DNA of 35,347 bases, from assembly GCA_025356055.1 (NCBI GenBank), contig JANXUU010000018.1, positions 1 to 35,347 on the forward strand. Direction: 5' to 3'. The stretch's first letter is position 1. Each line of letters starts with the position of its first letter. This document shows positions 23,751 through 25,500 of this stretch, in pieces. The translations under genes were made by a program, and so were the position numbers. The notes below the pieces were generated by a model that saw only the letters and a list, made by a program, of their open reading frames with translations, searched no databases and was not told the DNA's origin. This stretch comes from Sphingomonas sp. (lineage in GTDB: Bacteria; Pseudomonadota; Alphaproteobacteria; Sphingomonadales; Sphingomonadaceae).

Positions 23751-24949
23751 TCAGACGTGTGCGCGACTGAACCCGCGTTGAACATCGCCGCGCGCCGCCA
23801 TCGCCGCGGGATAGACCGTCTCGAACAGGCGCTCCATCGCCTTGTCCCAGCTCAGTGTCGCGGCATGCGCGCCGCCGCCCCGCGTATCGCTGCCCTCCCT
23901 GGATCGGCCAGCAGCGCGACGATATTCGCCGCCATCGCTTTCGCGTCGTCGACCGGCCCGAGCAGCCCCAGCCCGGCCGGCACCCGGTCGATCATCGCCC
24001 CCGCCGCGACGCCGACCACGGGCAGGCCCGCCGCCTGCGCCTCGATCACCGAAATGCCGAACGTCTCGTCGGCCATCCCCGACACATAAAGGTCCGCGCT
24101 CGCCAGCCACCGCGCCAGCAGCCCGCGATCGCGAATGAAGCCTGTGCAATGCACCCCCGACAGCCCGGCGAATTGTTTACGCAGCGGCCCATCCCCGATC
24201 AGCACCAGCTTTGCGCCAAGGTTAACCGGCAACCGCGCGAACGCCTCGATCACCGTCGCGGCTCGCTTCTCGCCGTCGAGGCGGCCGACATAGATCAGCA
24301 GCGGCGAGTTCCCGACGCAACCCGCCTCCGCGCGCAACACCTCGGCGCGCCCGGCTTCGCTGAACTCTTCGACATCGACCCCAAGCGGCGCGACGAACAC
24401 CCGTTCCACTCCGATCGAGCGAAGCTTGTTCGCCCCACCATGCTCGCTCAGCGCGATCACCGCATCGAACCGCCGGTAGAGCCCTGCGAGGTAGCGATAC
24501 GCCACTCTCGCCGCCGCGCTGCCGAACCGGTCGCCCGCCAGCCCGTCGCCGATCCGCTTTGTATAGGCAGTCGGAAAGTCGGTCATGAACGACGCCACCA
24601 ACGCACATTCTGGATGATCGCGCCGATATCGCAGCACCGCCCACGGCAGATTATAGGCGTCCTGGCACTCGATCAGGTCGGGCCGAAATCGTCGAAGCGC
24701 CTCGCGCACCGCGCCATTGCGCAGCAGCAGCCGATAATTCGGGCTTCCCGGCACCTTGGGCGAGCGCAGTGTTACCGTGATCGCGCGCGCCTCCTCGACT
24801 ACTTCATCGCGCCTGCCAGGGATGACGAGCAGATGTCGGTCCTGCGTACGTTCGAGAATGAAGCGCCGCTTGCGATTGAGATAGACGCGGATCCCACCGC
24901 CCTTCTCGGACCAGCTCTGGGTCACGTCGGCATAGAGCAGTCCGCTCAT
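23751..24949 (-). CDS. Glycosyltransferase family 4 protein, frameshifted near the C-terminus
   Basis: The start at 24949 gives MSGLLYADVTQSWSEKGGG, the acceptor-domain opening of a GT4 subfamily. The donor-binding half has Y-V-G-R-L-D-G-E-K-R and the E-x7-E motif in ADETFGISVIEAQAAGLPVV. The readable frame stops at 23852 after R-G-A-A-A-R. The family's expected end (H-A-A-T-L-S-W-D-K-A-M-E-R-L-F-E, then a tail to the stop at 23751) is in the next frame, and one added base in the GCGGCGGCGCGCAT stretch near 23870 would restore 399 residues exactly. It probably transfers a sugar from a nucleotide donor on the cytoplasmic side; the acceptor is unknown. It leads the cluster that runs to the polymerase-like gene. 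Confidence 0.82.
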
Positions 24950-25047
24950 CGCCGCGCCCCGCCGTCTTGTCGGGGAATTTGACGCTGCCCGACACCGCGC
25001 CGCCAGCCGCAACCGGAAATTTCTCTATCTTCCGCTGTTTTCTGCAA

Positions 25048-25064
25048 TTGGCACGGCGATTGCA
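25048..25064 (+). promoter_or_regulatory. Consensus sigma-54 (RpoN) promoter
   Basis: TTGGCACGGCGATTGCA matches the RpoN consensus TGGCACG-N4-TTGCW at every fixed position, with the -24 GG at 25050-25051 and -12 GC at 25062-25063 correctly spaced. The predicted start of transcription is about 25075, rightwards. No plus-strand gene follows for more than 3 kb; instead a terminator lies 70 bases downstream. An imperfect pair CGGAA (25014) and TTCCG (25030) lies just upstream, but no activator site can be named. Confidence 0.7.
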
Positions 25065-25074
25065 TCACTGGTAT

Positions 25075-25146
25075 TGTCCACTTGGTTCCACGACCAATGA
25101 AAGGGACGGTGCAGCGGTTTCTGGTCCCGCTCCACCGTCCCTTTTT
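25075..25146 (+). ncRNA. Candidate sigma-54-dependent small RNA
   Basis: Between the predicted RpoN start site and the run of T at 25142-25146 lie about 72 bases. They can fold into a short 5' hairpin (TTGGT 25082-25086 with ACCAA 25093-25097) and a long terminator hairpin (25100-25144), the two-stem layout common in trans-acting small RNAs. No convincing ribosome-binding site and reading frame lie within it; the ATG at 25098 opens a frame that only continues antisense to grxD. The call is inferred from promoter plus terminator; conservation and expression are unknown. Confidence 0.5.
25100..25146 (+). terminator. Strong intrinsic terminator hairpin
   Basis: The arm AAAGGGACGGTG (25100-25111) pairs with CACCGTCCCTTT (25133-25144), and inside it AGCGG pairs with CCGCT. 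A TTTTT run follows on the plus strand. On the minus strand the same hairpin comes 30 bases after the grxD stop and is followed by only TTT, so it may also end that operon. Confidence 0.85.
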
Positions 25147-25176
25147 CATCATCCACCTCTTGCGAGTGCGAGAAGA

Positions 25177-25500
25177 TCAAGCAGCGCTAGGCGCAGCGTT
25201 GACCAGTTCCTTAAGCTCGCCACTCTCGAACATCTCCATCATGATGTCCGATCCGCCGACGAATTCACCATGGATGTAAAGCTGCGGCACCGTCGGCCAG
25301 TCGCTATACGCCTTGATCCCTTGGCGCACCTCGGGATCGGCGAGCACGTCGACCGTCTCATAGCGCGCGCCGAGATGGTCGAGGATCGAGATCGCCCGGC
25401 TCGAGAAGCCGCATTGCGGAAACAGCGGCGTACCCTTCATGAACAGCAAGATATCATTCGTCTTCACCAGCGCGTCGATGCGCGTTTGGGGGTCGGTCAT
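25177..25500 (-). CDS. grxD: Monothiol glutaredoxin (CGFS type)
   Basis: The 107-residue Grx4 homolog has the K-G-T-P-x-x-P-Q-C-G-F-S active site (CGFS at about 30-33), W-P-T-V-P-Q-L-Y-I-H-G-E-F-V-G-G-S-D and the usual length. These proteins bind a 2Fe-2S cluster with glutathione and deliver it, often together with BolA proteins. The gene overlaps the upstream bolA-like gene by four bases (ATGA), so the two products are made together, consistent with their known complex. Confidence 0.95.
   Translation of the reverse strand: MTDPQTRIDALVKTNDILLFMKGTPLFPQCGFSSRAISILDHLGARYETVDVLADPEVRQGIKAYSDWPTVPQLYIHGEFVGGSDIMMEMFESGELKELVNAAPSAA

Follow-up and report, generated by a model that had tools for sequence, protein, structure and literature searches.

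A predicted sigma-54-dependent small RNA gene linked to PrsK-PrsR in Sphingomonas

What does a consensus sigma-54 promoter transcribe if no gene follows it? The question is raised by a 35,347-nt stretch of DNA from Sphingomonas sp. (contig JANXUU010000018.1 of assembly GCA_025356055.1), the whole of which is referred to here as the window. Close to grxD, and facing it, a -24/-12 promoter is followed by two hairpins and a run of T residues, and the list of open reading frames shows no convincing plus-strand gene within 3 kb downstream, in agreement with what the first-pass annotation of this DNA had stated. That annotation read the arrangement as an RpoN-dependent small RNA, and this core reading is supported by genomic tests, with RpoN and the response regulator PrsR encoded in the genome and with promoter and hairpins conserved together. 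Judging from sequence comparison, the locus is probably a small non-coding RNA gene of the PrsK-PrsR regulon, which would be activated by PrsR and sigma-54 and whose product would most likely base-pair in trans. The features on which the argument turns are collected in Table 1.

Table 1. Features at and around the predicted small RNA gene (window coordinates)
Feature	Position	Strand	Basis or remark
GT4-type glycosyltransferase, divergent	23852..24949	-	start read at 24949; below the cut-off of the best equivalog
Activator box TGTCGGGGAATTTGACG, predicted PrsR-binding site	24968..24984	+	conservation and published motif 1
-24/-12 sigma-54 promoter TTGGCACGGCGATTGCA	25048..25064	+	consensus match and conservation in 55/55 genus loci
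Predicted small RNA, about 71-74 nt	25076..25148	+	5' end inferred at 25075-25076 from conservation
Hairpin 1, UUCCAC in loop	25082..25097	+	fold
Hairpin 2, apical loop UUUCUGGUCCC, T-tail (T5 at 25142-25146); likely intrinsic terminator	25099..25146	+	fold, covariation
grxD, Grx4-family monothiol glutaredoxin; conserved neighbour, outside the RNA	25177..25500	-	TIGR00365, 149.6 bits, cut-off 117.1

The promoter and the predicted RNA behind it

The promoter is the single zero-mismatch match to the pattern TGGCACGNNNNTTGCW in the window, and only this exact match stands out from shuffled sequence; if up to three mismatches are allowed, the window holds 56 matches against a shuffle mean of 56.7. 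The exact pattern TGGCACN5TTGCW occurs in three copies in the 2.52-Mb window genome, or about 0.04 per 35-kb window, which puts a chance match nearer to one in 25 than to the one in a hundred estimated at first. Genome-wide, sigma-54-like sites with at most one mismatch are not commoner than those of a reversed-pattern control (56 versus 53), and for this reason the promoter match alone is weak evidence; the case is settled by conservation, not by the match itself. When 55 genus loci were anchored on the 5' block of the RNA only, which avoids circularity, TGGCA-N7-TGC was found at the place of the promoter in every one of them, a one-base shift being allowed. The RpoN-consensus promoter picked out in the first-pass annotation, unique in the window as an exact match and with its bases kept in all 55 loci, is in this sense real. 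A sigma-70 reading, which had one overlapping 9/12 match, was set aside, the conserved feature being the -24/-12 bases at their fixed spacing.

Downstream of the promoter a GTCCAC block begins 12 nt past the -12 C in 48 of 51 genus loci and 11 nt past it in the other three, as counted with a pattern that itself required promoter bases and outside of which four of the 55 loci fall. Because this conserved block starts within a base or two of the sigma-54 start position, the +1 of the RNA is placed at about 25076, and the promoter would have its +1 at the RNA 5' end. The block, GUCCAC..UUGGUUCCAC, is nearly invariant in the genus. Behind it the two hairpins and the T-run that had been noticed from the sequence are recovered as folds at 25082-25097 and 25099-25145, the latter running into the T5, and the 86 plus-strand bases 25065-25150 fold at -37.4 kcal/mol (z -5.67), with none of 200 shuffles as good. 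Hairpin 1 has a 4-bp core that is paired in 96.9% of the cells of alignment A1 and undergoes no two-sided change; CUGG variants occur three times, with the matching CCAG in just one, and covariation lends the predicted hairpin weak support. In the terminal stem of hairpin 2 two-sided changes affect seven of 11 pairs of the same alignment, and 64 cells are changed on both sides, a figure that none of 500 shuffles reaches and that compares with 3 to 15 in slid controls. A strict and simple scan for intrinsic terminators was passed by 40 of the 55 genus loci and failed by 15.

A search of the surrounding 1.2 kb with 4227 Rfam models returned two chance-level matches (E 2.1 and 2.4), both far under their gathering scores and neither on the RNA; in 20 further loci every match was to a tRNA or overlapped one and lay outside the RNA. 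No conserved open reading frame was found within it, start and frame varying over the 55 genus loci. Conservation and folding together describe a conserved, structured, non-coding RNA with a predicted terminator.

Within the genus this RNA is nearly ubiquitous. A blastn search with positions 25020-25180 matched 54 of 60 other genus genomes and, weakly and partially, two of 39 more distant ones. Fifty-two sequences went into the covariance model R1, which detects the RNA in 68 of the 71 genus genomes, among them all 53 good ones (it misses G004, G039 and G106), recovers it in five of the six genomes missed by blastn, and has one match in the window genome. Public records with the 5' block and loop of the RNA amounted to 28 stretches, of which 27 bear the name Sphingomonas or Sphingomicrobium (Sphingomonas rhizophila and Sphingomicrobium astaxanthinifaciens among them) and one is labelled only Pseudomonadota. 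The genus blocks align from the promoter through to the T-tail. Joint conservation of the -24/-12 bases and the hairpins had been suggested as a check on the first reading, and the two are indeed kept together, as seen in the 55 of 55 loci, in the reach of R1 and in the covarying stem.

An activator box and its likely regulator

Column conservation upstream of the promoter revealed a 17-base box that the first-pass annotation does not mention. Its genus consensus is TGTCGGN5TTKACR, of which the window copy is a variant ending TTTGACG; among the 55 genus loci 35 carry it exactly, 18 with one mismatch and two with two, whereas among 5500 shuffled upstream stretches 27 have it with two mismatches or fewer. 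In the window a spacer of 63 nt separates the box from the -24/-12 motif, which is itself 17 nt long. In the available text of Haft et al. 2006, the promoters of PEP-CTERM genes have upstream a 17-nt motif 1 ending TTTACA, then a spacer with a mean of 62.8 nt (range 32-92) and a 17-nt -24/-12 motif 2, and PrsR is proposed as the protein that binds motif 1 (PMC1569441). The predicted site in the window fits motif 1, as there described, by its length, by its end (a close variant) and by its spacing. Box, promoter, predicted RNA and hairpins are conserved together.

The window genome encodes RpoN and, besides PrsK (TIGR02916, 501 bits, cut-off 300), the response regulator PrsR (TIGR02915, 669 bits, cut-off 502.6); both the sigma factor and an enhancer-binding activator, which the first-pass annotation had asked to see confirmed, are hence present. 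Strong sigma-54 activators number four in this genome. By our own reading GAFTGA, the motif of sigma-54 activators, is present in PrsR and has a counterpart, GSFTGA, only in PspF, while a protein that we label NtrX-like and a fourth regulator have no motif of this type. The GAFTGA position of one response regulator with a sigma-54 activator domain (C119:23286 of the window genome G000; L060) reads GAFPGA, and the protein may for this reason not activate sigma-54. PspF as the activator was considered and is the less likely candidate: in the psp stretch examined, the 30-250 nt ahead of the psp promoter contain no box with up to two mismatches, and PrsR is preferred on this ground. The psp stretch itself (G000 C72:46739-47365; L058, L095) has PspF divergent to a gene that we label PspA-like, with a near-consensus -24/-12 site between them.

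The window genome holds six exact copies of the box, namely a pair at the start of prsK, the window copy, and one each on contigs C84, C125 and C140; for these last three no sigma-54 partner with at most two mismatches was found. In all 30 genus loci in which prsK was located by alignment the box stands at its start, 28 of them having a divergent pair and two a single box, and in the window genome the divergent pair lies at the very start of the gene (G000 C116:6140-6182; L094, L136). No good sigma-54 site was seen at the usual spacing from the prsK-start boxes, so that they tie the box to prsK without showing activation; perhaps they serve autoregulation, possibly of another type. The divergent glycosyltransferase gene starts 18 bases from the box in the window, and PrsR might on account of this proximity affect it too; of 73 genus rows, in which some genomes appear twice, 60 show the gene beside the RNA, and none of 62 family sites does. 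Between box and promoter, two A/T tracts about ten bases apart (25017-25031) are kept in the genus, and many sites of the family carry an GTTAACCAT-like stretch in the spacer; both are possibly bending or extra binding sites.

Experimental precedents come from PEP-CTERM systems. According to the available text of two reports, Aquincola pepA depends on RpoN1 and, by primer extension, has its start downstream of a promoter of this type (PMC9850573), and in a DNA-affinity assay the five PEP-CTERM targets predicted for the Desulfovibrio PEP-CTERM regulator DVUA0057 were enriched by it (PMC3333781).

Box and promoter across the Sphingomonadaceae

Defined as a box and a promoter 36-66 nt apart, the element occurs in 48 of 71 genus genomes, at 50 sites of which 45 have the RNA-type and five the small-protein length (length being the basis of this assignment), and in 137 of 249 family genomes, with reversed-pattern control columns of zero in genus and family genomes alike. 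The element goes with PrsR: it is found in 132 of 211 genomes with PrsR as against five of 38 without a PrsR-level match (Fisher p 1.8e-8, a value that ignores relatedness, many of the PrsR-less genomes being from shared genera). Four of these five are fragmented or incomplete, while G448 (5 contigs, 96%) is not. The presence of prsK is useless as a test inside the genus, because nearly every genome there has prsK and nearly every one has the RNA.

Seventy family loci holding 71 elements were viewed, 40 of them chosen by element length. Among the 62 elements of length 94-100, 42 face an antisense grxD within the flank, as against none of the nine of other lengths; judged by eye, eight of the 62 are followed by protein genes, PEP-CTERM-like or other, and the remaining 54 are sRNA-type sites. 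Their mean fold z is -3.58, with 47 of the 54 below -2, versus 0.10 at 17 protein-type sites, a contrast that is partly built in because a missing hairpin was one ground for the eight exclusions. The motif GGTCYC occurs at 42 of the 54 (10.6 expected in shuffles) and at none of the 17. Stem sequences differ strongly between genera, and it is therefore on promoter, place, hairpin and loop that the RNAs of other genera are called diverged homologues. Matches to R1 outside the genus were found in 38 of 368 genomes, all of them weak (best E 1.2e-6), and the two best (L236, L237) were dismissed as unrelated hairpins that have no box, promoter or grxD; the model thus has little power to detect the diverged RNAs. 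A weak R1 match (E 0.002) in G201 comes directly after the element. One family locus (L265; G560:C5:132065-132654) contains two tandem box-promoter-hairpin cassettes 492 bp apart, both facing grxD.

The elements of 75-77 nt have a different output. All eight that were viewed in the family (L241, L242, L250, L253, L259-L262) and three in the genus (L159, L178, L180) stand before the gene of a small membrane protein, conserved and about 77-112 amino acids long, of the form MFKKLRRLFLIKTKFEAYLIIYALALGAVERG..YPG.GGWLLFLACTGAVFMAGAKILD, which is encoded directly behind box and sigma-54 promoter and has no Pfam or NCBIfam name. The window genome has its own copy of this protein (G000 C82:4975-5395; L093), with one mismatch in the box.

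The gene on the far side of the RNA is a constant neighbour within the genus: of the 55 loci, each spanning about 3 kb, 54 have grxD, and the exception (L056) is cut by a contig end. On the minus strand we recognised grxD, bolA, DUF1476, an acyltransferase and an oxidoreductase, grxD being the one that was checked against a family library. The first-pass annotation had suggested that read-through would run antisense to grxD-bolA-DUF1476 and so might link the RNA to iron-sulfur metabolism. For the genus this is unsupported, the predicted RNA ending about 30 bases before grxD. In other genera an antisense link could exist, since a simple scan found an intrinsic terminator within 300 nt at 14 of the 54 sRNA-type family sites and none at 40.

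Mode of action and the output of PrsK-PrsR

In the mechanism that we propose, phosphorylated PrsR would bind the box and activate sigma-54 RNA polymerase at the promoter; transcription would start at about 25076 and stop at the hairpin and T5 near 25146, yielding an RNA of 71-74 nt. The RNA would most likely act in trans by base pairing, for which it offers two conserved stretches rich in C and U, UUCCAC and UCUGGUCC (in other genera GGUCYC), and such stretches could mask purine-rich ribosome-binding sites. PrsR binding, transcription, RNA ends and pairing are all steps that we infer from sequence. Seed duplexes with 29 prsK leaders and 55 glycosyltransferase leaders were no better than those with shuffles.

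The RNA may also be real and under PrsR control and yet work as a decoy or a protein-binding RNA instead of pairing with mRNA, in the manner of GlmY, which acts on RapZ. This is rather unlikely but has several observations on its side: from genus to genus the stems and flanks change, but stable hairpins that share a loop motif are retained, a UGGUC-type motif appears twice in several RNAs, the 40 family sites without a terminator lack the U-tail within 300 nt, and the small target test on the prsK and glycosyltransferase leaders gave nothing. The near-invariance of the 5' block in the genus, however, fits a seed, and no protein partner is indicated. The orientation towards grxD, seen at 42 of the 54 sRNA-type family sites and mirrored by the presence of grxD at the genus loci, would suit an action in cis, in which active PrsR would reduce grxD expression by way of transcription that runs antisense to grxD-bolA or collides with it, and so would the sites without a terminator. 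Collision alone, on the other hand, would not keep the internal sequence and the loops of the RNA, the predicted 3' end of the genus RNA lies some 30 nt short of the grxD stop codon, and 12 of the 54 sRNA-type sites have no grxD in the flank examined; we consider such an action improbable.

It is very improbable that the hairpin is a mere, perhaps bidirectional, terminator of the minus-strand grxD operon and that the -24/-12 match is due to chance or non-productive. The hairpin is indeed nearly symmetric and situated some 30 nt beyond the grxD stop codon, and in 25 of 63 distinct genus RNAs at least six T are found in the 9 nt past the stem on the minus strand too, compared with 42 on the plus strand. 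Counted after the outermost G-C pair, however, T residues favour the plus strand in 45 of the 63 and the minus strand in seven, with 11 equal, although a cruder count gives a slight bias (plus strand in 36 of 63, equal in six); promoter and box at fixed spacing in all 55 loci, together with a conserved 5' block outside the hairpin, are likewise at odds with a terminator and nothing else. That the RNA is a leader or a small mRNA for a short peptide is scarcely credible: an ATG at 25097 does open a 60-codon frame in the window, but in 26 of the 55 loci no frame opens with ATG or GTG at a distance of up to 60 nt from the RNA start, and the frames of the remaining loci differ in place, length and sequence.

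A trans-acting RNA under PrsR and sigma-54, the reading that we prefer, would be new as a family, in that no Rfam entry matches it, and of a kind already known, that of sigma-54 small RNAs under a response regulator. The Qrr RNAs of Vibrio are controlled by LuxO and sigma-54. The first-pass annotation had drawn the comparison with Qrr, and it holds for the layout, with a small RNA, a sigma-54 promoter and an NtrC-type response regulator, and fails at the level of the family, for which no Rfam match was found; the proposed activator is moreover PrsR, for which the LuxO model gives 303 bits (cut-off 800), and R1 has one match in the window genome. GlmY/GlmZ and CrcZ are sigma-54-dependent small RNAs linked to envelope or carbon control, from which the window RNA differs in that it has no Rfam sequence match and no RapZ- or Crc-type motif was identified in it. 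Rfam also holds a suhB family, and it is through the Rfam scan, in which no family overlaps the RNAs of the window and of the 20 further loci, that the present RNA is set apart from SuhB. In the available text on Sphingopyxis granuli TFA, SuhB is a short trans-acting sRNA of a sphingomonad, reported in carbon catabolite repression (PMC6563040), and in that on Desulfovibrio vulgaris the response regulator DVU0679, different from PrsR, also targets a small RNA (PMC3333781). No paper in the open-access literature searched was recognised as describing the present RNA, most subscription papers being outside the search.

PrsK-PrsR was named in 2006 after PEP-CTERM genes, and the signal was left open in the available text (PMC1569441). 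The window shares with the PEP-CTERM promoters there described the 17-nt motif 1, the spacer, the 17-nt motif 2 and the PrsK-PrsR pair, and differs in that its element stands before a predicted non-coding RNA instead of a PEP-CTERM gene in a genome with an exosortase; RpoN, PrsK and PrsR are present and a match to the exosortase model TIGR02602 was not found in the window genome. PrsK is over the cut-off in 67 of the 71 genus genomes, and TIGR02602 has matches in 23 (21 over the cut-off), or in 19 of the 53 good genomes, counts that refer to this one model, which could overlook sorting enzymes of divergent sequence. Read literally, the counts mean that PrsK-PrsR and the RNA are retained in genomes in which no sorting enzyme was found. 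Given the RNA in all 53 good genomes versus exosortase in 19, PrsK-PrsR might therefore serve as a general sensor of the envelope whose main route of action is RNA. We suggest tentatively, as a possibility somewhat short of even, that in the Sphingomonadaceae the small RNA, along with the small membrane protein, forms the core output of PrsK-PrsR, and that PEP-CTERM/exosortase sorting is an optional extra. The retention of the RNA where no exosortase was found suggests that PrsK-PrsR does more than supply PEP-CTERM proteins. Kept across the Sphingomonadaceae, also without exosortase, the RNA would provide a simple reporter of PrsR activity, and it would add a circuit of response regulator, sigma-54 and small RNA in the Alphaproteobacteria.
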